A model generated the notes under the pieces. That model had not been told where the DNA came from. It searched no databases and saw nothing but the letters and a program-made list of their open reading frames with translations. From an uncultured Alphaproteobacteria bacterium (lineage in GTDB: Bacteria; Pseudomonadota; Alphaproteobacteria; Rhodobacterales; Rhodobacteraceae): DNA of 64,000 bases. Position 1 is the first letter of the stretch. Each line of letters opens with the position of its first letter. A program made the translations under genes and the position numbers. The stretch is taken from assembly GCA_902574225.1 (NCBI GenBank), contig CACGMO010000003.1, forward strand, positions 1 through 64,000, written 5' to 3'. Below are positions 20,636 through 59,843 of the stretch, piece after piece.

Positions 20636-20652
20636 TTTTCTAATCCTATTAA

Positions 20653-28839: not shown

Positions 28840-28846
28840 GCAAAAA

Positions 28847-40415: not shown

Positions 40416-42491
40416 TTATATTTTTCGACTTAAAATACAATCAGCTGCTATCATGCTATCTTCGTATATAAAAAATGGATTTATCTCTATTGATGCGCAC
40501 CCATTTTCTTCTTGGTTATGAAAATCTGCTATTTTAAATATTTCATTTATAATCATATTTAATTTTACTTTACTATTATTGCGAAAGCCATTGATTAAAT
40601 TGAAAAATTTCATTTTTTTAATTTCTTGTGAAATATATTTTTCTGATACAGGTAATATAAAAGTTTTTGTATCCCTGTATATTTCAGTTAATGCTCCTCC
40701 CATACCAACAACTAATACATTACCAAATGTTTTGTCACTTCGAATGCTTAAAAACATTTCTGCAATTGGAGCTGGAAGCATTTCTTCAATAAAAAATATA
40801 CCTTTATTAATCGCCTTTAAGCCCAATGATTTTTTAATTTCATGATATTTTGATACGAGCTCCTTTCGACTATTAATGTTTAATTTAACAGCTCCTAACT
40901 CGGTCTTATGTAAAATTTTTGAGCTAGTAAACTTTAAAGCGATTGGGAATTTAATTTTTACTTTTTGTAAATCTTTTATATTTTTTACAAGCTGAGCATT
41001 GGGAACCTTTATTCCTTGTGCTCTGATACTAATTTTTCCTTGGTACTCGTTTGCGTTTAGACATTTATCATTTTTGCGTTGCGCTAGCTTAAATTTTTGT
41101 AACTCTTTTTTATCACTGAAATTATTGTAATCTAGAAGGTGTCTTACTGCGTTTAAACAGTTATATATGCCCTGCATTGGGACACCACCTAACCTCAAAA
41201 TCTTATTGCCAACATTTTCATTTATATTTTCAGGCAGAGTTGAACAGATAATGGGAGTAAGACCAACGAGTTTACTCTCATCTATAAAAGCCTTTGTATC
41301 GTTTAAATAGAGTTGTTCAGTATCGTTTATTTGCGTATGAGGAAAATCCTGTACCAAAATTGCTGTGGAATAGTCGTTTTTCAATGCGTTTTTAAATACT
41401 GGACCTGTCTTTTCTGGAATACCCCATATGGGAGTTGTGTAATCCAAGGGGTTTGATATCGTTGCTATTTTTGGTAACACTTTGTCCAGTGATTTTTTTT
41501 GACTTTTTCTAAAGTTTGGTAACTTTAATTCTAAATCTTCTGCGTTATCTGCAACCATTGCAGCTCCACCACCAGAACAGGTAAGTGCTAAAATTTTATT
41601 TGTTTTTATAGGGCACGAAATACTAAATAATTTAGCTGTTTCAAGTAATTGTATTGGGTCATGCACTTCCGTGATAGCCAATTGCTTAAAAAGTGCTGAA
41701 TACATTTCATTATTTCCGGAAAGAGATCCGGTATGGCTTTTAGCAATCCTTTTACCAATTTGTGATTTACCAGATTTGTAAACAATAATAGGTTTTCCTG
41801 CATTAAATGAAAATTTTGAGGCCTCCACAAATCTAGTTAAATCAGAAATTCCTTCGATGTGTATAGCAATGCAGGACACATTTGTCTTTTTGCTGAAATA
41901 GTGAATTAAGTCTTCAATCTTTGTTACAGCTTGGTTCCCCGCGGATACCATAAAGCTAATTGGAAGTGATCTAGTCGCCATAATAATATCTGATGATAGC
42001 ATTCCACTTTGAGTAATAAGCGCAATTCCCTTTTTGCAATGTTTGCCTTTGTGTGAAAATGGCCAAAGTGCAAGGTTGTCAGAAAAATTAATAAATCCAT
42101 AACAATTAGGCCCAATTAATGGAGTATCACCGCATTCCTTAATAAGTCTATCCTCAAGGTATTTTCCAGTAATACCGATTTCTTTAAACCCTGCCGAATA
42201 ACATACTATTCCCTTGCACTTAATGGCTTTAAGAGCTTTTACAGTTGATATAACCTCTTTAGCGGGCACAGCGATGAACGCAGCATCCGGACTCAACGGA
42301 AGGTCAGAAACCTTTCTTAAACATTTATAATTATCGATTTTCTTTCTGGTTGGGTTAACAACAAATATTTTCCCCTTATAACCTCTTCTTTTTAACTCCC
42401 TTATGGGAACAAATATGTCTCTGCCACCAATAAAAACGACTGATTTTGCTTTAAAAAAACGGTCAATGCTTTTAAAAGAGTTTAAAATCAT
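40416..42491 (-). CDS. Acetate-CoA ligase family protein (ADP-forming type, fused)
   Basis: A 691-residue enzyme of the NDP-forming acyl-CoA synthetase family: CoA-binding Rossmann domain (residues 8-130, with NPTRKKIDNYKC), a succinyl-CoA-ligase-like domain with the phospho-histidine region SHTGSLSG (about 254-261), and a C-terminal ATP-grasp domain (from about 475, with LKFTSSKILHKTELGAV). It activates a carboxylate to a CoA ester with ATP to ADP. As the last gene of a seven-gene minus-strand operon and coupled to the acyl-CoA dehydrogenase (ATGA overlap), it may activate gamma-butyrobetaine or another acid of the pathway. Substrate unknown. Confidence 0.87.
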   Translation of the reverse strand: MILNSFKSIDRFFKAKSVVFIGGRDIFVPIRELKRRGYKGKIFVVNPTRKKIDNYKCLRKVSDLPLSPDAAFIAVPAKEVISTVKALKAIKCKGIVCYSAGFKEIGITGKYLEDRLIKECGDTPLIGPNCYGFINFSDNLALWPFSHKGKHCKKGIALITQSGMLSSDIIMATRSLPISFMVSAGNQAVTKIEDLIHYFSKKTNVSCIAIHIEGISDLTRFVEASKFSFNAGKPIIVYKSGKSQIGKRIAKSHTGSLSGNNEMYSALFKQLAITEVHDPIQLLETAKLFSISCPIKTNKILALTCSGGGAAMVADNAEDLELKLPNFRKSQKKSLDKVLPKIATISNPLDYTTPIWGIPEKTGPVFKNALKNDYSTAILVQDFPHTQINDTEQLYLNDTKAFIDESKLVGLTPIICSTLPENINENVGNKILRLGGVPMQGIYNCLNAVRHLLDYNNFSDKKELQKFKLAQRKNDKCLNANEYQGKISIRAQGIKVPNAQLVKNIKDLQKVKIKFPIALKFTSSKILHKTELGAVKLNINSRKELVSKYHEIKKSLGLKAINKGIFFIEEMLPAPIAEMFLSIRSDKTFGNVLVVGMGGALTEIYRDTKTFILPVSEKYISQEIKKMKFFNLINGFRNNSKVKLNMIINEIFKIADFHNQEENGCASIEINPFFIYEDSMIAADCILSRKI

Positions 42492-43645
42492 GCCCCAAGA
42501 GGTCTAAGCATTGAGCGTGTTACAATATGCCTTTGTATTTCAGAGGTTCCATCCCAAATTCTTTCCAAACGAGAGTCTCTCCAAAGCCTCTCAATAGGCA
42601 TCTCTTCCATTAAGCCCATTCCTCCAAAAATCTGAACAGTATCATCTGCTACCTTATTAAGCATTTCTGAACAGAAAATCTTAACAATAGCCGCATCCTC
42701 ATCCATCATTTGACCAGTAAGAGCCCTGTCTACAGCATCTTTTACTAAAAGGTCTGCGGCTCGTAAGTTCATCTTCATGTCTGCTAGCTTGAAACCTGTA
42801 GCTTGGAAAGTTCCTATTGGCTTGCCAAATTGTTTTCTTTGAGCAGCCCAGTCTAAAGCTAAATCAAGAATTCGTTCTGCCTTGCCACAACAAGTCGCTC
42901 CTACCCAAATACGACCCATGCCAAGCCATTTCCCAGATAATGAAAGTCCATTACCCTCAGTACCTAGTATCTTATCAGCAGAAAGCCTAACGTCGTTAAA
43001 GCTTAACTGGTAATTTTTATATCCCCGGTAGCTGATACACTTTGTACCCTCTTGAATATCAAATCCGGGAATACCAACATCTACTAGGAAGGCTGTAATT
43101 CTTTTTCTTTTTCCGCGAGGTGTCTCATCTTCTCCTGTAGCAGCAAATACAATCGCAAAATCTGGCATACATGGTCCAGAAATAAAATGTTTGGAACCAT
43201 TCAAAATCCAGTCATCTCCTTCTTTCTTGGCGTTAGATTTCATACTCATTATATCGGAGCCCGCGTCAGGTTCTGTTAATGCAAATAATTCTCGTTTATC
43301 ACCTTTTACACAGGGATAAAGGTATTCTTCCATTTGCTTTTCGTTGCAGGCTAGAAGTATTTCGGTAGGACGTGCTATCCATGAATGTAAAGCATGTGAA
43401 GTTTTTCCATACTCCCTTTCAACTATCATCATTGAAGAATAATCTAATCCCCCCCCACCGTATTTTTCTGGAAGATTAGCTGCAAATAATCCTACTTCTT
43501 TTGATTTTTCTTCTATTTGTTTGCCTATTTCATCAGGAACATAACCAAGTTTATCCACACGGTCTTCATGAGGATAAATTTCGTCAGCCATGAATTTTTG
43601 GACAGTATCTAATAGAATTTTTGAGTCGCTTGAAGTATCATACAT
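42488..43645 (-). CDS. Acyl-CoA dehydrogenase, possibly gamma-butyrobetainyl-CoA dehydrogenase
   Basis: FAD enzyme of 385 residues introducing a 2,3 double bond in an acyl-CoA. Motifs LTEPDAGSDI and GRIWVGATCCGKAERILDLALDWAAQRKQFGKPI are typical (first quote shortened in family logic to AQRKQFGKPI). At the position of the usual catalytic glutamate the sequence is IWDGTSEIQ, so aspartate is the likely base. Next to CaiD-like, carnitine dehydrogenase and BKACE genes it could act on gamma-butyrobetainyl-CoA, making crotonobetainyl-CoA (CaiA-like step). It overlaps the CoA-ligase gene by 4 bases. Confidence 0.88.
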   Translation of the reverse strand: MYDTSSDSKILLDTVQKFMADEIYPHEDRVDKLGYVPDEIGKQIEEKSKEVGLFAANLPEKYGGGGLDYSSMMIVEREYGKTSHALHSWIARPTEILLACNEKQMEEYLYPCVKGDKRELFALTEPDAGSDIMSMKSNAKKEGDDWILNGSKHFISGPCMPDFAIVFAATGEDETPRGKRKRITAFLVDVGIPGFDIQEGTKCISYRGYKNYQLSFNDVRLSADKILGTEGNGLSLSGKWLGMGRIWVGATCCGKAERILDLALDWAAQRKQFGKPIGTFQATGFKLADMKMNLRAADLLVKDAVDRALTGQMMDEDAAIVKIFCSEMLNKVADDTVQIFGGMGLMEEMPIERLWRDSRLERIWDGTSEIQRHIVTRSMLRPLGA

Positions 43646-43660
43646 AGTTTATCTCAATAA

Positions 43661-44548
43661 TTAGTTTTTTATTAATGAAAGTTTTTTTCTTGTTTCATCT
43701 GGGGTAAGAACTCTTCCACCCATTAGGGTGATTATTTTTATAACTTTTTCAACCAATTGTCCATTCGTAGCAAGCACGCCTTTTGAAAGATAAAGATTAT
43801 CTTCTAAGCCAACACGAACATTGCCCCCCATAGTAACGGCTGCAGCAGCCATTGGTATTTGCATTCTTGAAATACCAAACCCAGACCAAGTTGCGTTTGA
43901 TGGAAGATGATCCTTCATTGCCTTCATAGTATCAACACTTTGATCAGCGCCCCACGGTATTCCTAAACATATTTGAAACATTGGAGGTTCTTTAATTAAT
44001 CCCTCTTCAATTAGCTGTTTGGCTAATCTAATATGACCTAAGTCAAAAACCTCTAATTCTGGTTTTACTCCCCAAGATTTTGTCAATTCGGCCATTGTTC
44101 TCAGGATAGGTAGAGTGGATATATAAATAGAATGATCATTGACACCAAAATTTAAGGTTCCACAATCTAAGGAGCAAATTTCTGGCTTACATATCTCTAT
44201 GTGCGCGAGCCTCTCATCAGGACCTATCATGTCCGTTCCGGGGCCAGGCATCGAAAAATCATTTTCATCAGGAACCCAATCACCGCCCATTCCTGCAGTA
44301 AGATTTATCACTACATCAGTTTTATCATCTCTTATTCTGTCAACCGCTTCTTTAAATAAGTTTACATCTCGGGATCCTTTACCAGTTTCTGGATCTCGCA
44401 CATGAACATGGGCTGCAGAAGCACCTGCTTTCGCAGCTTCGATAGCAGCATCTGCAACCTCTTTTGGAGTTACTGGAACATGAGGACTTTTATCAACTGT
44501 CTCACCGGCTCCTGTAACCGCACATGTCACTATTACCTCAAAATTCAT
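43661..44548 (-). CDS. BKACE family enzyme (beta-keto acid cleavage), 3-dehydrocarnitine type
   Basis: Zinc TIM-barrel enzyme of 295 residues that cleaves a beta-keto acid with acetyl-CoA to give acetoacetate and a new CoA ester. Zinc ligands H47 and H49 lie in [25 protein letters not shown] and [17 protein letters not shown] are also typical. In carnitine users this family converts 3-dehydrocarnitine to betainyl-CoA, the step before glycine betaine. The upstream neighbour is L-carnitine dehydrogenase (10-base gap), which supports that substrate. Other beta-keto acids are possible. Confidence 0.9.
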
Positions 44549-44558
44549 GCTAACCTCA

Positions 44559-45506
44559 TTATTTATTTGGATGATTGTTTTTTATGGCACTCAAAATCGC
44601 AGCTATTGCGTTATCACGATCTTTAGCCATTTCAAGAAAATGCTTACCTTTTGACATATCTTTACACCCATTAACCATCTTATTACGTAATTCTTGTGTT
44701 AATTCAGGTGCTTTAAGTCTAGTCCATGGTAATTGTAATGCAGGGCCGAATTGGTCTAGATTTGTAGCCATACCTCCTTCACCACAGGCTACGTGAAATG
44801 CCATGCATTGACCTTGGTAAGCCATCCTAGGTGCTGGCCCATTAATTAGTGCTAAATCAATTTGCTCGGGTGTTGCTTCATCATTTGCGACCATGTGTAA
44901 TGCCTCTCGCCATAATGCTTCCTGTAAACGAGTTGCAATAAATCCTGGAATTTCTTTTTTAAGCACAATTGGGACTTTACCGACCGCTTTATAGAAGCTG
45001 ACCGCCTGATCAACACATAGTTTATTCGTGTATTCACTAGCAACAACCTCTACCAGTGGAAGTAAGTAGGGAGGGTTAAAAGGATGTCCTACTATTGCTC
45101 TATCTTTTGTATTGCAGTTCTTTACGATGTCTGAAATTAATAGTCCAGAAGTTGATGAAGCTATAATAACGCTTGGGTTTAAAAATAAATCAATTTGGGA
45201 ATAAAAATCTTGCTTTACATTTAATATCTCTGGAATGCTTTCCTGCACGAAGTCGACCTCGCTTAAGCTCTCTTTTAAGTTGGTAAAGATTTGCATTTTT
45301 TCTAACGATGCTGTTTTATCAATGCCTAATTTTTCTAATGTTTCCCAAGCCGTTTTGATTAATGACTTATAATCATCTATTTCATTCTCTGAGTGGAGAT
45401 AACATTTTACAATTAGGCCTTTGGCTAGAAAGTGAGCGGCCCAACCAGCTCCTATTGGTCCACCTCCAATACTGGCTACTGTTGAGATCTTATTTAAACT
45501 TTCCAA
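44559..45506 (-). CDS. L-carnitine dehydrogenase (3-hydroxyacyl-CoA dehydrogenase fold)
   Basis: NAD enzyme of 315 residues oxidising the 3-hydroxyl of L-carnitine to 3-dehydrocarnitine. The Rossmann motif is [43 protein letters not shown] and [11 protein letters not shown] match carnitine dehydrogenases closely. I place the start at TTG (45506) because AAAGGA lies 7 bases before it and it lies just after the CaiD stop; an ATG at 45569 is inside the CaiD gene. Many rhizobial and xanthomonad versions carry a fused C-terminal thioesterase; this one does not, so a betainyl-CoA thioesterase must come from elsewhere. Confidence 0.89.
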
Positions 45507-45507
45507 G

Positions 45508-46311
45508 CTATTTTCCTTTGAAATTTGGATCTCTTTTTTCAACAAACGCCGCCACACCTTCAGCTGCATCGTCAGATTTAAGCATATTCGAATATGTCGA
45601 CAAATTGCCTGACCGCATTTCTGAAAAAGCCTCTTTTAAAGCTTTACATTCTATCGCTCTTAAAACTTCCTTTACGCTTTGCATTGCTAGTGGAGCTGTC
45701 TGCGACATTTTTTCTGCCCACTCTCTTGCAGAATCTAAAAGTAAGGATTTATCAACCACTTTATTTACCAATCCAAAGCTTTTTGCTTCCTGAGCTGACA
45801 TTCTACGACCAAGAAAAAACATTTCCATTGCAATATTGTATGGAATTCTTCTAGGTAACCTTTGAAGTGCACCTGCATCAGGAACAATACCTAGCGGCAT
45901 CTCAGGCAGACCAAATTCAACGTGTTCTGCTGCTATAATCAAATCACAGGACATTGCAAGCTCAAAACCGCCACCAATTGCGTGACCATTTAGAGCGCAA
46001 ATCACTGGCTTGTTCAAATTCCAATTTTCTGTTAATCCGGCAAAACCACCATCACCGTAGTCCGCCTTTTCCCACCAATTGTCTAGCGCCATCTCTCCAG
46101 AATTAACGGCTTTCAGGTCCCATCCAGCTGAAAATATCTTATCTCCTTCACCAGTAATTATTCCAACTCTAAGGTCTGGATTATCTCGTAATTCCGCAAA
46201 AGCTTTTCCAAGATCTTGACTAAGTTTGAGGTCTATAGCATTTACTTTTGGCTTATTGATTTTGATTTCTAGTACTTTTTCTTTTACTTCTACCTCTAGA
46301 TGACTTGTCAT
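45508..46311 (-). CDS. caiD: Crotonobetainyl-CoA hydratase/carnitinyl-CoA dehydratase (CaiD-like)
   Basis: Crotonase-fold enzyme of 267 residues. The oxyanion-hole segments are FSAGWDLKA and GHAIGGGFELA; KPVICALNGHAIGG and the ending EKRDPNFKGK match E. coli CaiD closely. It would hydrate crotonobetainyl-CoA to L-carnitinyl-CoA (or another enoyl-CoA). It lies 9 bases after the luciferase-like monooxygenase gene and 1 base before the carnitine dehydrogenase start, in one operon. Confidence 0.88.
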   Translation of the reverse strand: MTSHLEVEVKEKVLEIKINKPKVNAIDLKLSQDLGKAFAELRDNPDLRVGIITGEGDKIFSAGWDLKAVNSGEMALDNWWEKADYGDGGFAGLTENWNLNKPVICALNGHAIGGGFELAMSCDLIIAAEHVEFGLPEMPLGIVPDAGALQRLPRRIPYNIAMEMFFLGRRMSAQEAKSFGLVNKVVDKSLLLDSAREWAEKMSQTAPLAMQSVKEVLRAIECKALKEAFSEMRSGNLSTYSNMLKSDDAAEGVAAFVEKRDPNFKGK

Positions 46312-46320
46312 TTTTTATTC

Positions 46321-47358
46321 CTATTGAAAAGCAGGAAGAACTTCTTCACAGAACAACTCTAGTGATCTCTTCTGTGAACCATGATCCAACCCCATCGATG
46401 CGTAATAGATAAAATTATCCACCCCGAGATCTTCATAACGCTTTAATTTTTTAATAACCTCGTCTGGTGTTCCAAACAGTAGATTTTCTTCAAGCATAGT
46501 TGGATTATATTCCTCTCTGTTTTCTAGTTCTTTCAAAGCAATTTCCTTGGGAAAGCCGTCTTTAACGTCACCTAAATTTTTAAACAAATTTTCAAATTGG
46601 CCTAATATACGTTGAATAGCTCTGATATAGACACTCGATTCTTCTTTGTTTTTATAGACAGCAGCGTGCCTCATCATCGCAAAAATAGGTTTAAAGCCAT
46701 CAGAGGCACTTTCTAAAGCATCATCAAGACGTTGTTTATAGAGCTCTGCCTCTGAAAATGGTCTAGTTAGAGGCCAAGACATTATATTGCAATGATTTTT
46801 CACTGCATAGTCATAGGTAATAGGTGCTCTAGCAGCTACCCATACAGGGGGTCCACCTATTTGCACAGGTTTTGGAACAGACGTGGATAATGGAAAAGAC
46901 CAAAATTCACCATTATGCTCATAATCTCCTTCCCATAGCTTTTTGATGACTGGAAGACTCTCCTGCATATATTTCCATGCATCAGATTGCTTGAGTCCTG
47001 GGTGCATTCGATCAAATTCTCGTTGATATGCCCCTGAACCTATACCAAATTCAAGGCGACCCTCAGTAATTAGGTCTGTGAACGCAGCCTCTCCCGCAAG
47101 TTTGATTGGGTGCCAATAGGGGGCTGCTGCTACAGCAGTGCCAAGCCTTACATCGTTTGTATTTTCTGCCCACCATGTGATTATTTGAAAAGGGTTTGGA
47201 GCAATTGTCATTTCCAAGGCATGGTGTTCAGCAGCCCATACAATATTAAAACCACTTTGATCTGCCATTTGCACCATCTCTAGTGTATGATTTTTCACAT
47301 CCTTCATTGACAAAGAGTTGTCTGCTCTTTCTAGATTTATTGCTAAATCAAATTTCAT
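46321..47358 (-). CDS. LLM class flavin-dependent monooxygenase
   Basis: Bacterial luciferase-like TIM-barrel enzyme of 345 residues that uses reduced FMN and oxygen. The fold is indicated by WAAEHHAL, VRLGTAVAAAPYWHPIKLAGEAAFTD-like segment (in two parts: RLGTAVAAAPYWHPIK and LITEGRLEFGIGSGAYQREF). Family members cleave alkanal, sulfonate, uracil (RutA) or N-methylpyridinium rings (TgnA). No flavin reductase gene is in the operon. It lies between an aldehyde dehydrogenase and CaiD and faces a divergent operon with RidA and a hydrolase, as in ring-opening pathways. Substrate not known. Confidence 0.88.
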   Translation of the reverse strand: MKFDLAINLERADNSLSMKDVKNHTLEMVQMADQSGFNIVWAAEHHALEMTIAPNPFQIITWWAENTNDVRLGTAVAAAPYWHPIKLAGEAAFTDLITEGRLEFGIGSGAYQREFDRMHPGLKQSDAWKYMQESLPVIKKLWEGDYEHNGEFWSFPLSTSVPKPVQIGGPPVWVAARAPITYDYAVKNHCNIMSWPLTRPFSEAELYKQRLDDALESASDGFKPIFAMMRHAAVYKNKEESSVYIRAIQRILGQFENLFKNLGDVKDGFPKEIALKELENREEYNPTMLEENLLFGTPDEVIKKLKRYEDLGVDNFIYYASMGLDHGSQKRSLELFCEEVLPAFQ

Positions 47359-47389
47359 CTACTTAATTCCCCTAAAAATGCTTTATACT

Positions 47390-48871
47390 TTATTTCATAA
47401 CAAATGGATTAGCTGCCGGTTCATCTGACATATTCATCCAAACCGTTTTTGGCCGAGTATAGTCATATATCGCTTGAAAACCACTTTCTCGACCATAACC
47501 TGAGTTTTTAAATCCTCCAAATTCTGCAATTGGAGACACAACCCTGTATGTGTTAACCCATACTATTCCTGCATGAACTGCCTTACTAACTCTCAGGCAC
47601 CTAGAATTACTTTTGGAAAAAATGCCCGCTGCTAATCCGTGTTTTGTATCATTAGCAAGAGATATGACCTCTTCTTCTGTTCTAAATTTTATTACGGATA
47701 GTACGGGTCCGAACAATTCAGTATCTACTATTTTTAGCTTCTGACTAGGGCAGTCTACAATTGTAGGCTCAAAAAACAATTCACCAAGACCTTCAGGTGA
47801 CTTGCCACCACACAACAAAGTTGCACCTTCTTCTACAGCAAACGCAAGTTCAGTTTTAATATTTTCAAGCTGGCCTTTTGTACATAAAGGGCCCATTTGG
47901 GTTTCGTCCAATAGTGGGTCTCCAATTTTTATGTTTTTTGCTTGCTTAACGATTAAGCTCAAAAATTTATCTGCTATATTTTCTTGAAGGTATAATCTTG
48001 ACCCAGCAACACAGCTTTGACCTGTTGCACCAAAAATTCCAGCAATAGAACAATTAACCGCATTCTCTATATCCGCATCATCAAATACAATAAAAGGTGA
48101 CTTGCCTCCCAGCTCTAAAGACACTTCTGCAAAATTTTCGGCAGAATTTCTAATAACATGTCGCGCAGAAGTTGGGCCTCCTGTGAACGATATCCTGGCA
48201 ACTTTGGGATGGCTTGTTAACTCTTTTCCACAAGGATCCCCATGACCAGTTATAATATTTACGACCCCAGGAGGTATGCCCGCTTCTTCAACGCATTTAC
48301 CAAAAGCAAGCATAGCTGCAGACGCGTGTTCAGACGCCTTCAAAACGATAGTGTTTCCCGCAGCCAATGCTGGGCCAATCTTTACGGCAACAAGAAACAA
48401 TTGTGAATTCCATGGAACAATTGCTGCTACAACGCCTAATGGCTCTCTGTTTGTAAATACAAATAAATCTGGCTTATCAATTGGTAATGTTTGGCCAGAG
48501 ACTTTATCAGCGCACCCAGCGAAGAAATTAAAAAATTGCGAAATATATTTTGCTTGCCATTTAGTTTCCTTTAACATTTTCCCGGTATCTATGGTTTCAA
48601 TTTTACCTAATTCCTCAGATTTGCTAGCTAGTATATCGGCTAATTTTCTTAGATGCTCTCCTCTTTCTGTTGGAGTCATTTTTGACCATGGTCCATCAGT
48701 AAACGCTTTATGAGCCGCCTCTACTGCGGTGTTAACATCTGTTCTTGATGCTTCCGGTATAGTACACCAGCTTTCTCCCGTTGTGGGGTTTGAGCTTTCG
48801 AACGTCCTATTATCAGAAGATAAAACCCATTCTCCATCAATTAACATTTTAAAATTTTCTAATCTGCCCAT
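47390..48871 (-). CDS. Aldehyde dehydrogenase (betaine-aldehyde/4-trimethylaminobutyraldehyde-like)
   Basis: NAD(P)-dependent ALDH of 493 residues with catalytic cysteine in GQSCVAGSR and the general-base glutamate in SLELGGKSPF. It heads the minus-strand operon, so it acts in the same pathway. It could oxidise 4-trimethylaminobutyraldehyde to gamma-butyrobetaine, or a semialdehyde formed by the monooxygenase. The ATG at 48871 is used, 8 bases after GGTGG; a GTG at 48883 is the alternative. Confidence 0.9.
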   Translation of the reverse strand: MGRLENFKMLIDGEWVLSSDNRTFESSNPTTGESWCTIPEASRTDVNTAVEAAHKAFTDGPWSKMTPTERGEHLRKLADILASKSEELGKIETIDTGKMLKETKWQAKYISQFFNFFAGCADKVSGQTLPIDKPDLFVFTNREPLGVVAAIVPWNSQLFLVAVKIGPALAAGNTIVLKASEHASAAMLAFGKCVEEAGIPPGVVNIITGHGDPCGKELTSHPKVARISFTGGPTSARHVIRNSAENFAEVSLELGGKSPFIVFDDADIENAVNCSIAGIFGATGQSCVAGSRLYLQENIADKFLSLIVKQAKNIKIGDPLLDETQMGPLCTKGQLENIKTELAFAVEEGATLLCGGKSPEGLGELFFEPTIVDCPSQKLKIVDTELFGPVLSVIKFRTEEEVISLANDTKHGLAAGIFSKSNSRCLRVSKAVHAGIVWVNTYRVVSPIAEFGGFKNSGYGRESGFQAIYDYTRPKTVWMNMSDEPAANPFVMK

Positions 48872-48931
48872 TTTTGCTTCCACCTTCTCTTCACACGTCG
48901 TTAAGTTTACAAGAGAAAAATGATCAAAAAC

Positions 48932-48967
48932 AATAACTATTTATTGTATGATAAATAAAAAGTTATT
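48932..48967. promoter_or_regulatory. Imperfect inverted repeat in the shared divergent control region
   Basis: AATAACT and AGTTATT outer arms and ATTTAT/ATAAAT inner arms with a 6-base centre (4 unpaired A residues on one side). It lies midway in the 148-bp region between the two divergent catabolic operons, a natural place for an operator or overlapping promoters. The region is extremely AT-rich, so symmetry by chance is possible. Confidence 0.35.
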
Positions 48968-49019
48968 TTCATAACCGTTATTTTGACAAATAATCTAATA
49001 ATCATTATAGGTGAATGAA

Positions 49020-49406
49020 ATGTCTAAAAAAATTATTGGCGATCCATTATTTATAAATGGACGAAAGTTGTCATTATCTAAGGCTGTTAGAGCTGGTGAC
49101 TTTGTGTATTTAACTGGTCAAGTTCCTATGAAAGATGGTGTGGTCATAACTCAAGGCACCATACAAGAGCAAACAAGAATAGTGCTCGATGAAATTAGAA
49201 ATACATTGATAGAGGCTGGATGTGAATTGCAGGATGTTGTTAAAGCTATGGTTTGGCTGAAAAATAGGGAAGACTTCCCAGGGTTTAATGCAATTTACGG
49301 GGAGTATTTTGACCATGAGCCTCCAGCTAGATCCGCCGTGGTCAGCGATCTTTTGGTTGATGTTTTAGTTGAAGTAGAAGTAGTAGCTTATAAACCTGAG
49401 TTGTGA
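49020..49406 (+). CDS. RidA/YjgF/Rut-type enamine deaminase
   Basis: Trimeric small enzyme of 128 residues. The Arg that binds the substrate carboxylate is present (PPARSAVV), and GDFVYLTGQVP, WLKNREDFPGFNAIYGEYF are typical. RidA proteins hydrolyse enamine/imine intermediates; operonic members (RutC and kin) act on products of ring opening. The ATG at 49020 is chosen, preceded by AGGTGA at 6 bases; a GTG at 49011 would overlap that site. The next gene starts one base after its stop. Confidence 0.91.
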   Translation: MSKKIIGDPLFINGRKLSLSKAVRAGDFVYLTGQVPMKDGVVITQGTIQEQTRIVLDEIRNTLIEAGCELQDVVKAMVWLKNREDFPGFNAIYGEYFDHEPPARSAVVSDLLVDVLVEVEVVAYKPEL

Positions 49407-49407
49407 T

Positions 49408-50201
49408 ATGAAGAGACAATATTTTAACGGCAACTGCTTTAAATATTTTTTTAAGAATCCCAAGTTTAAAACTATTGTTTTTATACATGGTTTAGGACTC
49501 AACCAAGATGTCTGGTCATGGCAGGTTTCATTGTTTAAAAACTATAATGTACTTATATACGATCTTCTTGGTCATGGTGATAGTAAAGATCCTGAAGGTG
49601 AAATTTCTTTAAGTATGTTTGCAGATCAACTTCTACAAATAATCAATCACATTAAATTAGAAAAATTTATACTAGTTGGGTTTTCTCTGGGATCAATGAT
49701 TTCTCGAAAATTTGCATCTTTACACCCAAGCATAGTAGAGGCATTAGTTCTTTTAAATTCACCCAATAGGCTTTTGGATCAGGAAAGGGATGAAATTTTA
49801 GAAAGAGCAAAGTTGTTGAAAGATGAGGGTCCAGAGTCTACGACCGATGCGGCGATAAATAGATGGTTTAGTATTACTTTTCAAAAAAGTAATCCTCATA
49901 TCGTTCAGCTTGTGCGTAACTGGGTAAATAATAATAAAAAGAAATCTATGCAAAAGTTTACCCCATACTTTATTTTGGATCTATTGACCTCAAATCGTTA
50001 CATGAAAGCAAGCCGACACTTATAATAACCTGTGATCAAGATTTTGCTAATGGTCCTGACGCTGCAGAAGAAATTGCAAATAATTTTAAGAATAGCAATG
50101 TCCGTATTTTACAAAGCTTAAGGCATATGGCATTGGTCGAAGACTATAAAAAGGTTTTTGTAGAAATTGATAAATTTTTTGTATCATTGAATTTACATTA
50201 A
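49408..50201 (+). pseudogene. Alpha/beta hydrolase (RutD/PcaD-like) split by a frameshift
   Basis: The open frame 49408-50025 gives 205 residues with HGLGLNQDVW and the nucleophile GFSLGS, but stops before the acid and histidine. In another frame, without a gap, the sequence reads SLHESKPTLIITCDQDF, then LRHMALVED, ending at 50201: exactly the missing C-terminal strand with catalytic Asp and His. So one base is gained or two lost between about 49930 and 49990, where T and A runs occur. The joined protein would be about 264 residues, normal for the family. A real mutation, an assembly error, or a programmed shift are all possible. It lies between RidA and AA_synth genes. Confidence 0.82.
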
Positions 50202-50282
50202 CATTTTTTTGATACTTAATTTCAATGTAGCTTTAATGATCGTAACGTGCTTTATTTATTTGCAAAAGGATAGGAGCTCTAG

Positions 50283-50885
50283 ATGCTTAAAGAACTGAGA
50301 AAGATTGTAACTTTTGATGAAGACATATACAGTGAAGGAGGAAAAGAATCCAATCCTATTCTTCGCATAATTGGTGTTGCTGCAGTATTATCTAATCCTT
50401 GGAGAGGTTTGGGGTTTGTAGAGGACTTGCAACCAGAAATTAAAAGAATTGCTCCTGTGATGGGTAAAGCTTTGACCGACCGGTTGATTTCAATGGTTGG
50501 TAGTGGAGAAAAAATTGAAGCATATGGGAAGGCAGCATTAGCTGGGACCAGTTGCGAAATAGAGCATGCTTCAGCCATTATTCATACTTTGCAATTTGGA
50601 AACTTTTATAGGGAAGCGGTGGGAGCGAAAAGTTACCTAGGTTTCACAAATACGAGGGGTCCAGCAAATACACAAATTCAAATACCATTAATGGATAAGC
50701 ACGACACTGGAAGGCGATCGCATTATTTAACCGTTCAGTTCTCTATATATGATGCGCCTGATGTCGATGAAATAGTCTGTGCTCTTGGAGCTGCTACAAG
50801 CGGTAGACCCCATCATAGAATAGGTGATCGATACTCAGATCTAAAGGCTCTCCGCAAATCTGTTGATAATCCAGCTGGTATATAA
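50283..50885 (+). CDS. AA_synth family protein (PF06684, formerly DUF1185)
   Basis: A 200-residue protein of a family whose structures show a chorismate-mutase-like fold, with no established reaction. Typical segments are RKIVTFDEDIYSEGGK, VLSNPWRGLGFVEDL, YGKAALAG and IEHASAIIHTL. Such genes recur with luciferase-like monooxygenases, RidA, and aldehyde dehydrogenases, which suggests an enzymatic role in catabolism of N-containing compounds. AGGAG precedes the ATG, and 18 bases separate it from the second aldehyde dehydrogenase gene. Confidence 0.88.
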   Translation: MLKELRKIVTFDEDIYSEGGKESNPILRIIGVAAVLSNPWRGLGFVEDLQPEIKRIAPVMGKALTDRLISMVGSGEKIEAYGKAALAGTSCEIEHASAIIHTLQFGNFYREAVGAKSYLGFTNTRGPANTQIQIPLMDKHDTGRRSHYLTVQFSIYDAPDVDEIVCALGAATSGRPHHRIGDRYSDLKALRKSVDNPAGI

Positions 50886-50903
50886 TCGAAGAGGAGAAAA
50901 CAA

Positions 50904-52319
50904 ATGGTACTAGATAAATTCTACATTGATGGCGAATGGGTCCCCCCTTTAAAAGATGAAAAGATTGATATTATTAATCCATCAGATGAATCAGTTATTG
51001 GGACACTAAATGTTGGCTCACAGCTTGATATTGATAATGCAGTAAAGGCTGCAAAAACTGCATTTTCAAGCTATGCGCAGACAAGTGTAGCTGAGCGTTT
51101 AGACCTGTTGAGAGAAATAAGAAACCAGTTTAAAAATCGCTTTGAGGATTTTGTGGAAGCTATTACTAAAGAAATGGGGTCACCTGTAAAGCTCTCTCGT
51201 GGTGCACAAGCAGCTGTAGGGTTAGGTCATTTAAAGACGGCTATAAGGGTACTGGAAGAACATAAATTTGAATACCCGTTTAGTGGATACACTGTAAGGC
51301 ACGAGCCAATTGGAGTGTGTGGGCTTATCACACCGTGGAATTGGCCAATAAACCAAACTATATCGAAGCTTGGACCGTGTCTTGCCTCAGGGTGCACAGC
51401 AATCTTGAAACCAAGTGAATTATCACCACTATCAGCTAATATAATTGCTGAGATAATGGATGCCGCAAAGGTTCCTAAAGGAGTTTTTAATATGGTGCAT
51501 GGCTTGGGTCCGGTTGTAGGAGAGGCTTTATCTAACCATAAGGATGTAGATATGATGTCTTTTACTGGTTCAACTAGGGGAGGAGTCGCTGTTGCTCAGG
51601 CAGCAGCAAAATCGGTTAAGAGAGTAAGTCAGGAACTTGGAGGAAAATCACCTAATATAATTTTCGATGACGAAAAGTTTGAGCAATCGGTCACTGTCGG
51701 CGTGCAAAAAATTATGGAGAATACTGGACAGTCTTGTAATGCCCCAACCCGAATGATAGTACCGAAAAATCGACAAAATGAAGCTTTGGAAATTGCAAAA
51801 AATGTTGCAGAAAAATTGATAACTGGTGACCCTACGAAAGAAGACACAGACATTGGTCCGCTAGTAAGTCAAGCTCAATTCGATAAGGTGCAAAGGTTAA
51901 TTGAATCAGGGATTAAGGCTGGTGCTCAATTAGTAACTGGTGGATTAGGTAAGCCTATAGGGCTTAATGCCGGTTATTTTGTTAAGCCAACTATTTTTGG
52001 AGATGTGAATAACTCCATGGAAATTGCACAAGAAGAAATATTCGGCCCCGTCTTATCTGTAATCCCGTATGAAGACATTGATAATGCGGTTCAGATTGCG
52101 AATGATACAAGCTATGGCCTTTCCGCTTATGTATGTGGTAGTGATTCAGAAAAATTAAGGAGTGTCGCAAGGCAAATAAGGGCAGGTCAAATCCATGTTA
52201 ATTATGGTAGCGGGGGAACTAATGCACCATTTGGTGGCTTTAAGCAATCGGGTAATGGGCGAGAGAAGGCTGAGTGGGGTTTGGAAGAATTCTTAGAGAC
52301 TAAAGCAATAATGGAGTAA
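50904..52319 (+). CDS. Aldehyde dehydrogenase (second copy, GabD/SSADH-like)
   Basis: NAD(P)-dependent ALDH of 471 residues with catalytic cysteine in GQSCNAPTRM and glutamate in QELGGKSPN. It is clearly distinct from the ALDH at 47390 and is of the type that oxidises succinate semialdehyde or other short semialdehydes. In trigonelline catabolism two ALDHs act after ring opening; the presence of two ALDHs here on both sides of the control region fits that scheme. GAGGAG precedes the ATG. Substrate unknown. Confidence 0.9.
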   Translation: MVLDKFYIDGEWVPPLKDEKIDIINPSDESVIGTLNVGSQLDIDNAVKAAKTAFSSYAQTSVAERLDLLREIRNQFKNRFEDFVEAITKEMGSPVKLSRGAQAAVGLGHLKTAIRVLEEHKFEYPFSGYTVRHEPIGVCGLITPWNWPINQTISKLGPCLASGCTAILKPSELSPLSANIIAEIMDAAKVPKGVFNMVHGLGPVVGEALSNHKDVDMMSFTGSTRGGVAVAQAAAKSVKRVSQELGGKSPNIIFDDEKFEQSVTVGVQKIMENTGQSCNAPTRMIVPKNRQNEALEIAKNVAEKLITGDPTKEDTDIGPLVSQAQFDKVQRLIESGIKAGAQLVTGGLGKPIGLNAGYFVKPTIFGDVNNSMEIAQEEIFGPVLSVIPYEDIDNAVQIANDTSYGLSAYVCGSDSEKLRSVARQIRAGQIHVNYGSGGTNAPFGGFKQSGNGREKAEWGLEEFLETKAIME

Positions 52320-52343
52320 CGTATATCAGCGGGGGGATTTGAT

Positions 52344-53348
52344 TTGTCTATTGATGCGGAAACAAGCAAAAATTTTACGGTAGATTGTTTGCAGTATGCG
52401 AATTGGTCTGAGGAAATCTTTCAGCAGATGAGACAAGGTGGGGTTGACTGTGTTCACGTAACCATCGCCTACCATGAAAATTTTCGGGAAACTGTTTTAA
52501 ACCTTGAGAAATGGAACGAATATTTCAATAGTTATTCGGAGTATATTGTGCAAGCAGGTAGCTATAATGAAATATTATCTGCTAAGAAAAATAATAAAAC
52601 AGCGATTATTTTCGGTTTTCAAAACCCCTCTCCAATAGAAGACGATATTTATTTGTTAGAAGTTTGGCAAAAGCTTGGTGTTCGATTTATGCAGCTCTCT
52701 TATAATAATCAATCGCCTCTTGCTACTGGTTGTTATGAAAAGAATGACCCTGGCTTAACAAGAATGGGGAAAGAAGTTATTAAAGAGATGAATAGGCTTG
52801 GGATTGTTGTTGACATGAGCCATTCTTCTGATCGGTCAACTTTAGAGGCAATTGATAATTCATCACGACCTATTGCAATTACCCATGCTAATCCTGCATT
52901 TTGGCATTCTGCTTTGAGAAATAAGTCAGATGAAGTTCTAGACCGAATGTTTAAAAACGGTGGTATGTTGGGATTTTCTCTCTATCCACATCATTTACAT
53001 AATGGGAGTAATTGTACTATCGAAGACTTTTGTAAAATGATTGCAAAAACGGCAGAAAAATTTGGATCAAAAAATATTGGGATAGGAAGTGATCTTTGTC
53101 AGAATCAACCTGATAGTATTGTTGAGTGGATGAGAAATGGAAGATGGACCAAAACAAAAGACTATGGAGAAGGAGATTCTTCTAACCCTGGCTTTCCTAT
53201 TCAGCCTAATTGGTTCAAGTCAAACAAGGATTTTATCAATATTAAGGATGGATTAAAGCATATTGGATTTGATAATGATGAAATTAATTCTATTATGGGA
53301 CTCAATTGGATGAAGTTTTTCGAAAGTTCTTTTAGCAAAGAGATCTAA
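52344..53348 (+). CDS. M19 (renal dipeptidase) family protein lacking N-terminal metal ligands
   Basis: TIM-barrel metallohydrolase-like protein of 334 residues. Renal dipeptidase uses H20, D22, E125, H198 and H219. Here the N-terminal HxD is replaced (TVDCLQYANW) and the glutamate position reads FGFQNP, while the downstream histidines (VDMSHSS, AITHANP) and the aspartate of GIGSDL remain. It may bind a single metal and act on a non-peptide substrate. A TTG start follows GGGGGA. The next gene begins two bases after its stop with TTG. The family call is firm; dipeptidase activity is doubtful. Confidence 0.82.
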   Translation: MSIDAETSKNFTVDCLQYANWSEEIFQQMRQGGVDCVHVTIAYHENFRETVLNLEKWNEYFNSYSEYIVQAGSYNEILSAKKNNKTAIIFGFQNPSPIEDDIYLLEVWQKLGVRFMQLSYNNQSPLATGCYEKNDPGLTRMGKEVIKEMNRLGIVVDMSHSSDRSTLEAIDNSSRPIAITHANPAFWHSALRNKSDEVLDRMFKNGGMLGFSLYPHHLHNGSNCTIEDFCKMIAKTAEKFGSKNIGIGSDLCQNQPDSIVEWMRNGRWTKTKDYGEGDSSNPGFPIQPNWFKSNKDFINIKDGLKHIGFDNDEINSIMGLNWMKFFESSFSKEI

Positions 53349-53349
53349 G

Positions 53350-55047
53350 TTGGCAGTAGAAAAAAAAATACAGCTGTGTGGTCCACAGCCAAATATAAGA
53401 AAACCTTCCGAGGTTATGAAACTTGAAAGAATGGGGTCCTTCCATCCATCAAGGCTATCTTTTGCAAGAATATTGATCCGTAAAATGATACAGCAAAAAA
53501 CCCGTATTAGTTGCTCGCGTTGGGAAATGGATGAAAAAGGATTTGGTAATGCGGTTTATCAGTTGAGCCTTTTTGGTAAAGACTTGGCATTAATTGCATT
53601 TTCTGATCATCTTGAGAGTTCACAAAGGACTGATAGAGTTATTGCATCAAGTTGGGATACTTCTTTTGCGCTGTTTGATGGCGTTCCATCGATTTCAGAC
53701 ATTGAAAGACTTAAAACACAGTTACCTTTTCAAGAGGCGGGTAGGTATAGAAATACTGAGCTAGTTCTGAGTAGGGCTAATAAATCTGTAAGGATGTTTG
53801 AGCTGGTAGCGCAGTCATTAAGTGAAGGTGAGCAACCTCCAAGCGAGCTGATAAATGAAATCGGATATTTAATGCGAACTACGGCAGTGTATGGAAACGG
53901 AAAATTCGGCATTGATGATAGAAAGAATCACTGTGAACATTCTGACTTCTCTGTCCCATTTCAACTTGAAATGCTAACAGTGTACTTGATTAGAGGCTTC
54001 TCACTAGACTTAGTTAATCATGTTGCGAAAGCCCGTAACCCTAAAAAATTTGTTCCCCTTGATAAAAAAATTCAAAGATACCTAGGAATTGGTAATGCAA
54101 CTGGGCTTGGGATGGCTCCATTTTTAGTCAAACATCCTGTCTTATTGAATAATTGGTTTCAAGTTCGTGAAACCGCATTGTCACGGATGATTAATTTAGC
54201 AGAACTTTCTAAGGAAAAGGCTGAAAGATTAATCGAGTTAACATCTAGAGTTAGGGCCTTCCTTAACTCTTGGAATACTGACGATAATAGACAGAAGAAA
54301 AGAATTGATACCTTGGAAGCTGAGTGGGCATTATTAATAAATGAATTTACCTTAGAAAAATTATTAAAAAGCAATGCTTTAAAGAATATTTTTAATGTTT
54401 CAAAAAATTATTCGATAGAATGTCAAGAGTTAGTAGTGTCCTTGTTTATGGAAATTGGTGGGGATTTAATTGACGGGCTTGATCTATGTTTAGAGAGTAC
54501 CAAATTGCCTATGCTCTATCCTAAAATGAGAGTGCATGAGTTAGCTGACTTAATAAAAAAGAACTTCTCTTGGGCTTTAAAAATAGATTTTTCTTTGAAA
54601 GAAAATCAATCAAGGTTTTGGTACGTTTCAGAAGAAAAATTGGAGCCAAGATTAGGGAATCGCTATGAAGAGGAAGGCAAAGATTTAGAAAGGCCTTTAG
54701 ATATTGCTAAGCGGGTGTGTGCTTTACATGCCGATCTTGAAAGTATCGACAATGATATGATAGTAGCTGAGTTTTTAATAAAATATCCTGAACACCGATT
54801 TATTATTCGCAGGATACAAACAAATGCTTGGGCTCCATATTCCGAAATACACGATAATTTAATTGATGAACATTGCAAACCTATAGATATGCTACGTTGT
54901 AAACTATCCTTTTTTGGCGCGTCTAAATTTGATCCGAAATCAGACAGATGGGTTAGAGTAAATTTATTTCAAGGAGCACCTCTAAAACACGAGCTTAATG
55001 ACCAAAAAAATGACGACTGGTGGATGCCTACACTCGAATATTGCTAA
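53350..55047 (+). CDS. Unknown 565-residue conserved protein
   Basis: I do not recognise a characterised family. It is soluble, without signal peptide or membrane segment, rich in helices, with aromatic and charged runs (for example SRWEMDEKGFGNAVYQLSLFG near residue 55 and RNPKKFVPLDKKIQRYLGIG near 235, the latter glycine-rich and possibly a binding loop). Two notable features are a conserved-looking HCEHSDF and the end WWMPTLEYC. It starts with TTG two bases after the M19 gene and overlaps the DUF3726-like gene by one base (TAATG), so it is strictly tied to both. Confidence 0.72.
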   Translation: MAVEKKIQLCGPQPNIRKPSEVMKLERMGSFHPSRLSFARILIRKMIQQKTRISCSRWEMDEKGFGNAVYQLSLFGKDLALIAFSDHLESSQRTDRVIASSWDTSFALFDGVPSISDIERLKTQLPFQEAGRYRNTELVLSRANKSVRMFELVAQSLSEGEQPPSELINEIGYLMRTTAVYGNGKFGIDDRKNHCEHSDFSVPFQLEMLTVYLIRGFSLDLVNHVAKARNPKKFVPLDKKIQRYLGIGNATGLGMAPFLVKHPVLLNNWFQVRETALSRMINLAELSKEKAERLIELTSRVRAFLNSWNTDDNRQKKRIDTLEAEWALLINEFTLEKLLKSNALKNIFNVSKNYSIECQELVVSLFMEIGGDLIDGLDLCLESTKLPMLYPKMRVHELADLIKKNFSWALKIDFSLKENQSRFWYVSEEKLEPRLGNRYEEEGKDLERPLDIAKRVCALHADLESIDNDMIVAEFLIKYPEHRFIIRRIQTNAWAPYSEIHDNLIDEHCKPIDMLRCKLSFFGASKFDPKSDRWVRVNLFQGAPLKHELNDQKNDDWWMPTLEYC

Positions 55048-55661
55048 TGGATCTTTCTTTCTCGGAGCTAAAAGACTTAGTATTTAACGCGAGTATGGGT
55101 AGCAACCTTCCTACCGGGGTGTGTGAAGATTTATCGTTTGGTGTTACCTTTCTAGAGTCACGTTCTTTGCCCGGTGGTAAAGAGCTTTTATATTCCCTAA
55201 AATGTGAACGCCACCCACCTGAATTACCTCAAAAGAACGGCGTAAGTCTTATTTTTAGCAATTCAAGGGCAATTTTTGAAGGTCTTAGCGCAATTGATTT
55301 GCTTGTTTCAGAGGCTTGTAAAAGTGTGATATTAGAAAATATTGACTCTTCGATGCTTTTGGTTGGACTAGCTTCTAACTATTATGGTCTTAGTTTTAGT
55401 TTTTATAAAAATAAAGAAATCTGTGCTGCACTTTTTAATGATCAACTTAATTGGGAAAACGACAACTTAAGACGTAGCAACGATATAGAGATACGCTTAA
55501 ACAATAGTGAGCTGGACAATCCATTATCTAAGTGCTCAAGAATCTTGTTAGATGACAATGTATTCAAAGAACTTTCTAATCTAGCATCTAACATGCTGGT
55601 TCCAGAAAGCGAACTATCTCGAACAACGGGAGCAGGGGCTGGAAATATAGATAATGATTAA
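55047..55661 (+). CDS. DUF3726-like protein
   Basis: A 204-residue protein resembling DUF3726: the opening FSELKDLVFNASMG.NLPTGVCEDLSFG (read in two parts) is like the family's conserved N-terminal ARGAG...GLAEE region. No function is known. It begins at an ATG overlapping the stop of the 565-residue gene by one base (an upstream in-frame start at 55020 lies inside that gene). It is the last gene of the plus-strand operon and converges with the EF-hand gene. Confidence 0.7.
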   Translation: MDLSFSELKDLVFNASMGSNLPTGVCEDLSFGVTFLESRSLPGGKELLYSLKCERHPPELPQKNGVSLIFSNSRAIFEGLSAIDLLVSEACKSVILENIDSSMLLVGLASNYYGLSFSFYKNKEICAALFNDQLNWENDNLRRSNDIEIRLNNSELDNPLSKCSRILLDDNVFKELSNLASNMLVPESELSRTTGAGAGNIDND

Positions 55662-59155: not shown

Positions 59156-59156
59156 A

Positions 59157-59834: not shown

Positions 59835-59843
59835 GAAAATTAC

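Follow-up and report, generated by a model that had tools for sequence, protein, structure and literature searches.

A conserved and apparently undescribed gene set joining trigonelline-type and carnitine-type enzymes in an uncultured Rhodobacteraceae bacterium

Phytoplankton methylated nitrogen compounds represent a large and poorly traced flux. Homarine is reported to be drawn down by Ruegeria pomeroyi with a mean lifetime of at most 2 h (PMC12817926). The locus described here lies in a 64,000-nt stretch of DNA (the window; positions 1 to 64,000 of CACGMO010000003.1) from an uncultured Rhodobacteraceae bacterium, on contig 3 of an assembly of 2.09 Mb that is 88% complete. It occupies positions 40416–55661 as two divergent operons, and ten of its fourteen genes appear to form one conserved and apparently undescribed system. 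The enzymes are ordinary singly; the whole is unusual, with a trigonelline-type oxidative module joined to a paralogous carnitine-type module. No description of the gene set was found in the literature searched, among the matches listed and as far as titles and abstract openings go.

Parts of this locus resemble several described systems. The trigonelline (tgn) set of Acinetobacter baylyi ADP1, as we take it to be composed, shares a luciferase-like flavin monooxygenase (LLM), an aldehyde dehydrogenase (ALDH), an alpha/beta hydrolase, and a PF06684 protein, and relatives of the window also have its flavin reductase. The window differs in having an LLM of a separate group, a RidA protein, and a complete CoA half attached, and in having no flavin reductase in the cluster. 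Gamma-butyrobetaine/L-carnitine degradation shares the CaiD-type hydratase, carnitine dehydrogenase, and beta-keto acid cleavage enzyme (BKACE) kinds, and its CdhR-type regulator has a counterpart in an AraC/GATase-type regulator in 30 of 56 well-flanked relatives (defined below), mostly between the dehydrogenase and BKACE genes. Unlike that pathway, the window has no regulator and no thioesterase domain, carries Asp for Glu in its acyl-CoA dehydrogenase, is linked to LLM and flavin reductase, and has a dehydrogenase and a BKACE that fall in a group of their own within the order. An Arctic SAR11 island combines carnitine dehydrogenase, BKACE, and butyrobetaine dioxygenase with a betaine transporter in marine Alphaproteobacteria and is similar in these respects, but it includes the dioxygenase, and LLM, CaiD, RidA, and PF06684 are not named in the available portion of that report (PMC12421898). 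The Rut uracil pathway, which the earlier note on this DNA was reminded of by RidA, hydrolase, and LLM, is a weak parallel. These three kinds are shared, but scores against the RutC and RutD models fall well short of the cut-offs, and a Pfam scan of 20 window proteins showed no RutB-type amidohydrolase. The best 25 of the window LLM's 31 NCBIfam matches do not include RutA.

All 14 open reading frames (ORFs) were confirmed, and the two seven-gene operons and family names proposed in the earlier note agree with the following inventory.

40416..42491, minus strand: ADP-forming acyl-CoA ligase (ATP-grasp and CoA-binding; PF13549, PF13607)
42488..43645, minus strand: acyl-CoA dehydrogenase, IWDGTSEIQ with Asp for the expected catalytic Glu (PF00441/PF02770/PF02771)
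43661..44548, minus strand: BKACE (PF05853; order-sample identities; tree)
44559..45569, minus strand: carnitine-dehydrogenase-like 3-hydroxyacid dehydrogenase of a separate group, without thioesterase domain (PF02737, PF00725)
45508..46311, minus strand: CaiD-like enoyl-CoA hydratase (NF002936, 312.8 bits, under the cut-off of 500)
46321..47358, minus strand: luciferase-like flavin monooxygenase, LLM (PF00296; tree of 75 homologs)
47390..48883, minus strand: aldehyde dehydrogenase ALDH1 (PF00171)
48872..49019, no strand: divergent control region of 148 bp, both flanking genes taken to begin at ATG
49011..49406, plus strand: RidA-family protein of the imine/enamine deaminase type (PF01042)
49408..50025, plus strand: alpha/beta hydrolase of 205 aa, shortened by a frame change in the assembly (PF00561)
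50283..50885, plus strand: PF06684 (AA_synth, TgnF-like) protein (218 bits)
50904..52319, plus strand: aldehyde dehydrogenase ALDH2, a genus-specific addition to the layout (29–33% identity to the seven other ALDHs compared)
52344..53348, plus strand: M19 dipeptidase-like amidohydrolase, separate cassette (PF01244; nearest solved structure 2i5g)
53350..55047, plus strand: 565-aa protein, separate cassette (no Pfam or NCBIfam match)
55020..55661, plus strand: DUF3726-like partner of the 565-aa protein (PF12525, 25.5 bits)

Distances between genes range from -62 to 31 bp, with two larger ones. One is the 257 bp that separate the hydrolase from the PF06684 gene. The other larger distance lies between the operons and measures 127 bp with longest-ORF starts; the shared control region of 148 bp (48872–49019) claimed previously holds with ATG starts for both genes. 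Six promoter-like matches were found in 48700–49200, compared with a shuffled mean of 2.2 (standard deviation 1.5), and no terminators. The 257-bp gap contains the out-of-frame remainder of the hydrolase (DNA read by eye; window 49408–50282), a frame change that the earlier note missed. An intact 264-aa hydrolase gene is present in four relatives of the window's genus (L194, L195, L196, and L200), which are single-cell genomes of uncultured Alphaproteobacteria and the closest named relatives at the locus. The RidA protein carries a P-A-R-S-A-V stretch, the Arg of which is presumably catalytic.

Conservation of the gene set and linkage of its halves

Five window proteins (the 565-aa protein, LLM, PF06684 protein, BKACE, and dehydrogenase) were used to search 196 genomes of the order, the source genome included, and neighbors were mapped in 40 stretches and ten further ones by codon scoring and tblastn. 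Seven dehydrogenases from the window's group were aligned for a scan of genome contigs, and the best 80 of at least 568 relatives were retained as loci. Fifty-six of the 80 are well flanked, with at least 6.5 kb upstream and at least 3 kb downstream of the carnitine-dehydrogenase-like gene. Identity thresholds for neighbor counts were set gene by gene.

Both operons are visible in six of seven same-genus loci (L045–L050), although two of these are cut off by the end of their contig ahead of the CoA ligase gene; the remaining locus (L134) begins within the LLM gene. Across the 196 genomes, all five with the carnitine-dehydrogenase-like gene (at least 57% identity) fall among the 13 with the LLM (at least 58%; hypergeometric probability 6e-7, kinship ignored). 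The genes are dispersed in two of these five: ~750 kb separate the LLM and dehydrogenase genes of G074, and G106 has members of the set at several places. The 56 well-flanked loci contain CaiD in 49 cases, BKACE in 47, ligase in 42, acyl-CoA dehydrogenase in 41, ALDH1 in 36, LLM in 35, hydrolase in 33, RidA in 30, the regulator in 30, PF06684 in 28, CoA-transferase/flavin reductase in 26, a PotA-type transporter in 16, ProV (at least 40% identity) in nine, ureohydrolase in three, and mgsC in one; ALDH2, M19, the 565-aa gene, and DUF3726 occur in three each. Where the LLM is present (35 loci), it is accompanied by CaiD in all 35, ALDH1 in 33, BKACE in 32, hydrolase in 31, ligase and acyl-CoA dehydrogenase in 30 each, RidA and PF06684 in 28 each, and CoA-transferase/flavin reductase in 24. 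The earlier proposal of a single system of 14 genes is therefore retained, on neighborhoods, for the minus-strand operon, RidA, hydrolase, and PF06684, and given up for ALDH2, M19, the 565-aa gene, and DUF3726, which were found in only four of the 80 loci (three of the 56), in the window's genus.

In the common layout, one strand carries PF06684, the (CoA-transferase-)flavin reductase, hydrolase, and RidA, and the other carries ALDH1, LLM, CaiD, dehydrogenase, BKACE, transporter, acyl-CoA dehydrogenase, and ADP-forming ligase, with the regulator on the opposite strand between dehydrogenase and BKACE. ALDH1 and hydrolase lie on opposite strands in all 31 LLM-bearing, well-flanked loci that have both; they share a strand in L141 and L144, which have too short an upstream stretch to count among the 56. 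The set recurs in loci named Ruegeria, Sulfitobacter, Planktomarina, SAR116, and Aminobacter, with several gene orders (variants in L141, L144, L177, L183, L187, L188, and L191). The LLM adjoins PF06684 in L187 and L188, and ALDH1 is split off in L177 and L183 (the LLM side of L183 is outside the stretch). Because gene order varies while the set persists, function, rather than inherited order, appears to keep the genes together. The complete set is also found on annotated plasmids from two alphaproteobacterial orders (Aminobacter pSR3 and Parasedimentitalea pW43B), and an acetoacetate-CoA ligase gene adjoins it on pSR3, which fits a BKACE step that yields acetoacetate.

Of 84 loci examined, 25 encode a single protein that combines a family III CoA-transferase with a flavin reductase (22 belong to the 80; the others are L038, L041, and L079), and the reductase is unfused in L078, L138, L143, and L206. 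The Parasedimentitalea fusion protein is annotated as a CoA transferase. Since the fusion couples an enzyme that would feed the monooxygenase with CoA transfer, it connects the two halves, oxidative and CoA-dependent.

Relation to trigonelline and carnitine enzymes

Sinorhizobium meliloti pSymA and an Acinetobacter venetianus plasmid carry trigonelline-like gene sets in which PF06684, a hydrolase, a flavin reductase, an LLM, and an ALDH occur together. The window ALDH1 has 72% identity to that of Aminobacter pSR3 and 50%–54% to trigonelline-type ALDHs, and the PF06684 protein has 73% and 56%–63%, respectively. Compared with the putative tgn LLMs from the A. venetianus and S. meliloti sets, the window LLM has 38%–39% identity. 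In a tree of 75 homologs, the putative tgn LLMs form a separate group of eight (support 100/100), the branch to which is long (length 2). Genome G027 carries both LLM types at different places. The window cluster thus has the PF06684 (TgnF) gene, the hydrolase (broken in frame, intact in the four relatives), and the ALDH of a tgn set, and its LLM falls outside the TgnB-type group. The trigonelline ring-opening composition suggested previously is borne out for related gene kinds, the LLM being related to the trigonelline-type enzymes and of a distinct group. PF06684 includes TgnF, a trigonelline-set protein that has been reported to stimulate TgnE (PMC7913881). This gives a lead for the AA_synth protein, one of the four plus-strand proteins (with M19-like, 565-residue, and DUF3726-like) that had been listed as lacking an assigned reaction.

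Seven LLM loci nested in the window's LLM group (L051–L057) have ALDH1, LLM, and mostly PF06684 and hydrolase, with no CoA half within the stretch fetched. A thiamine pyrophosphate (TPP) enzyme occurs in L051 and L053–L056, and N-methylglutamate-synthase-like and glutamine-synthetase-like genes occur in L051 and L053. A Rieske ring-hydroxylating oxygenase gene lies between ALDH1 and LLM in L042 (7650–8819, G130). A molybdenum hydroxylase in place of the LLM upstream of CaiD (L140 and L167) was considered and set aside, as it was recognized by eye and is possibly a CO dehydrogenase.

The CoA half consists of enzyme kinds known from carnitine breakdown, as the earlier note had it, and its dehydrogenase and BKACE belong to separate groups. 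BKACE identity is 73%–76% in four other genomes of the order and 56% in the next best, and dehydrogenase identity is 57%–59% in the same four and 36%–39% in the next. The dehydrogenase scores 284 bits against NF005471, for which the cut-off is 414, placing it outside the carnitine dehydrogenase group, and no 4HBT (thioesterase) domain was found in it with Pfam. That domain is present in a dehydrogenase-thioesterase fusion on contig 51 of the same genome (L125), which together with a second BKACE makes up a standard-looking carnitine set; the contig also carries a GcvT-type gene. G074 likewise has a set of the window's group and, elsewhere, a whole standard butyrobetaine-type set that includes separate CaiD, ligase, and dehydrogenase genes; a class-III aminotransferase adjoins the LLM-less set in this genome. 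In the BKACE tree, the standard BKACEs of L125 and L130 pair (support 100) and join eight actinobacterial sequences (82), outside the main group, which has 69 members and also excludes the proteobacterial rows L199, L201, and L206. Among 66 acyl-CoA dehydrogenase homologs with at least 53% identity, 65 have the Asp of IW-D-GTSEIQ (the 66th is unreadable), at a position that we take to be the catalytic base. Glu occupies it in the standard butyrobetaine-type homolog of G074, the sole one compared, six distant ones being unreadable. Given the separate group within Proteobacteria, the Asp for Glu, and the standard-looking carnitine set elsewhere in the genome, these carnitine-like enzymes probably serve a compound other than carnitine.

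Candidate pathway and alternative explanations

We tentatively favor one catabolic system in two halves, a ring-opening oxidation of an N-methylated heteroaromatic compound followed by a crotonobetaine-like CoA route, for which we infer the substrate, the order of steps, and every reaction from gene content. The LLM, as a two-component flavin monooxygenase, would attack an N-methylated heteroaromatic compound, probably of the pyridinium type, with flavin from a reductase encoded in the cluster in relatives and in trans in the window's genus. Ring opening would give an N-formyl amino aldehyde, which ALDH1 would convert to a gamma-amino (but)enoate, and the hydrolase, RidA, and PF06684 protein may handle the formamide and enamine groups. 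The resulting gamma-amino acid would be processed like a crotonobetaine analog. The CoA ligase would activate the acid, with CoA transfer by the family III transferase added in relatives, and the specialized acyl-CoA dehydrogenase homolog would act on the CoA ester. The CaiD-like enzyme would hydrate it, the carnitine-dehydrogenase-like enzyme would oxidize the 3-hydroxy acid, and BKACE, with acetyl-CoA, would release acetoacetate and an N-methylated glycyl-CoA. A more specific version is unlikely, namely an undescribed marine N-methylpyridinium-type alkaloid pathway that runs via 4-(N-methylformamido)butenoate, read as crotonobetaine, and ends in acetoacetate and N-methylglycyl-CoA; in that version, the Asp base of the acyl-CoA dehydrogenase homolog may shift the double bond instead of oxidizing. 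If the two-half system is real, a methylated nitrogen compound acquires a sink with marker genes, and carnitine enzymes acquire a second, paralogous use, in carriers named Planktomarina, SAR116, Ruegeria, and Sulfitobacter, some of which are cultured strains; Ruegeria conchae TW15 is one culturable carrier.

The halves might also act in reverse order, which we consider rather unlikely. The substrate would then be a non-aromatic onio-butyrate (a butyrobetaine analog, for example a butyrate with a dimethylamino, guanidino, or different omega substituent) that the CoA half shortens to a substituted acetate, after which LLM and flavin reductase would strip the N-substituent and pass an aldehyde to ALDH1. 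Oxidative removal of an N-substituent is known for nitrilotriacetate monooxygenase. This order is consistent with the CoA half lacking the LLM in 12 of the 56 well-flanked loci (a PotA- or ProV-type gene is present in three of these), the PotA-type transporter in 16 of the 56, and DMGDH- or GcvT-like genes with 26%–30% identity to sarcosine oxidase alpha nearby in L154, L168, and L175. It is also consistent with a guanidinopropionase-like ureohydrolase by the set in the window and three of the 80 loci and by the LLM in L044, L051, and L053, and with the class-III aminotransferase in G074. However, PF06684, hydrolase, RidA, and the ALDH1 type accompany the LLM, as in trigonelline-type sets, and for seven LLM loci that fall in the same tree, the stretch retrieved contains no CoA half. 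Plain gamma-butyrobetaine/carnitine breakdown beside an unrelated oxidative operon is decidedly unlikely. Although ligase, acyl-CoA dehydrogenase, CaiD, carnitine-dehydrogenase-like enzyme, and BKACE match that pathway, the standard version in G074 uses the same kinds, and actinobacterial dehydrogenases have 54%–56% identity to the group, the separate groups in the order sample, the L125 set, and the Asp for Glu argue against it, as do the CoA-transferase-flavin reductase fusion and the LLM adjoining CaiD in many loci. An ordinary tgn pathway with extra genes seems very improbable: ALDH, LLM, hydrolase, and PF06684 are present and related to putative tgn sets, but the LLM belongs to another group, and G027 has both types.

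Several observations weigh against the favored two-half system. All 80 loci were seeded by one gene and the highest-scoring were kept, so the counts do not represent a random sample. A close LLM is missing from 21 of the 56 well-flanked loci. Twelve of these 21 have the CaiD-dehydrogenase pair, nine of the 12 also with BKACE and ligase, and another seven, all actinobacterial, contain little beyond a BKACE-dehydrogenase pair. The last two, L201 and L206, of gammaproteobacterial type, retain RidA, hydrolase, and ALDH, and their LLM is distant (26%–27%). Conversely, the LLM half occurs without CoA genes in the fetched stretch of nine loci (L051–L057, L039, and L044), so the two halves are separable. 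Actinobacterial sequences blur the separation from carnitine enzymes that the order sample shows: their dehydrogenases have 54%–56% identity to the Aminobacter member of the group, above the proteobacterial carnitine ones, and their BKACEs join the standard ones at support 82. An aromatic substrate is suggested by the 38%–39% identity to putative trigonelline monooxygenases that are themselves named by gene content. In the window's genus, neither CoA-transferase nor flavin reductase is in the cluster, and the sole PF01613 gene found elsewhere in the genome has no BLAST match to the group's reductase. GmaS, a glutamine-synthetase-like protein seen in relatives, was not found in the 88%-complete genome (best match 38%).

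Plus-strand tail and neighboring genes

The four tail genes (ALDH2, M19, 565-aa, and DUF3726) occupy, in the window's genus, the position of other genes in sister loci, and the four loci that carry them are placed in this genus by LLM identities of 96%–99%. Sister loci L204 and L205 have the transferase/reductase gene, and no M19, 565-aa, or DUF3726 genes were seen beyond their PF06684 gene. The best plasmid homologs of ALDH2 have 56% identity. No Pfam or NCBIfam match to the 565-aa protein was found at E 0.001, and a 16-sequence profile of its family had no PDB match at E 1. The family is present in 116 of the 196 order genomes and on 168 plasmid records. In 19 hand-picked neighborhoods (six plasmid records, L041, and twelve order genomes), the 565-aa gene is accompanied by a DUF3726-type gene in 18, M19 in 12, ALDH in nine (two at 32%–33%), LysR in seven, and Ldh in six. 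Only one of these 19, all outside the genus, has the present system beside it; this is L041 (G106), which was chosen for that reason and in which the complete cassette adjoins a PF06684 gene of the system. On a Mesorhizobium plasmid (L037, 13956–16400), the 565-aa and DUF3726 proteins are fused into one of 814 aa; the two therefore probably act together. The 565-aa/DUF3726 pair, which M19 often joins, constitutes a common cassette of its own, and in the window the M19/565-aa/DUF3726 genes with ALDH2 represent an added cassette, possibly for a related compound.

A grafted homarine-type operon is a somewhat unlikely origin of the tail. The published homarine operon reportedly has five genes and a regulator, and the recurrent cassette LysR-ALDH-M19-565-DUF3726-Ldh equals it in gene count. 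A betaine-type transporter lies in or near the cassette in five of six annotated plasmid records, two of which have an adjoining sarcosine oxidase, and a homarine pathway using N-methylglutamate dehydrogenase is cited in a 2026 paper (PMC13390433). The likeness is one of gene count, and Ldh and LysR occur in only six and seven of the 19 neighborhoods. Several 565-aa/DUF3726 pairs also adjoin tamAB-type or sugar genes, and the window's genome has no PF02615 (Ldh) match. In L068 and L070–L073, the pairs lie by TamB/Omp85-type genes, in four of the five also by a YcjX-type gene, and no M19 was found. This context fits a catabolic cassette poorly and is hard to explain.

The window also contains a TPP enzyme gene and molybdopterin/Fe-S/DmsC-like genes (19691–22428 and 26041–30462), which we take to resemble an Xsc/Pta and SoeABC sulfonate set. 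Homologs (42%–76%) of these sulfonate-like genes flank the 565-aa gene in L066 and L069. A functional link between them and the 565-aa cassette was considered and set aside, as the arrangement looks like shared osmolyte islands.

Three transporter genes precede the minus-strand operon.

37405..38409, plus strand: ProX-like betaine-binding protein, first of the three (35% identity to the L032 protein annotated as glycine betaine ABC transporter substrate-binding protein)
38485..39375, plus strand: ProW-like permease (same neighborhoods as the ProX-like gene)
39308..40411, plus strand: ProV-like ATPase (same neighborhoods as the ProX-like gene)

ProX homologs lie beside the system with 72%–94% identity in L139, L141, L151, L157, L160, L184, and L190, and with 34% in L172. 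On the other side of the locus, consecutive GATase, GXGXG, and glutamate-synthase-like genes (58259–61160) presumably correspond to the N-methylglutamate synthase genes mgsABC. N-methylglutamate-synthase-like genes are close by in the window, L038, L051, and L053, and also in three of the 80 loci (L157, L176, and L178). Betaine/polyamine-type transporters in part of the loci and these few N-methylglutamate synthase neighbors point to a methylated nitrogen substrate. The earlier suggestion of a nitrogen-containing betaine or N-methylpyridinium compound thus gains support as to kind, also from the trigonelline-type relation, and falls short of proof. Between the tail and the GATase gene lies an agmatinase/3-guanidinopropionase-like ureohydrolase gene (56635–57606), homologs of which (70%–76%) adjoin LLM clusters in L044, L051, L053, L151, L157, and L184.

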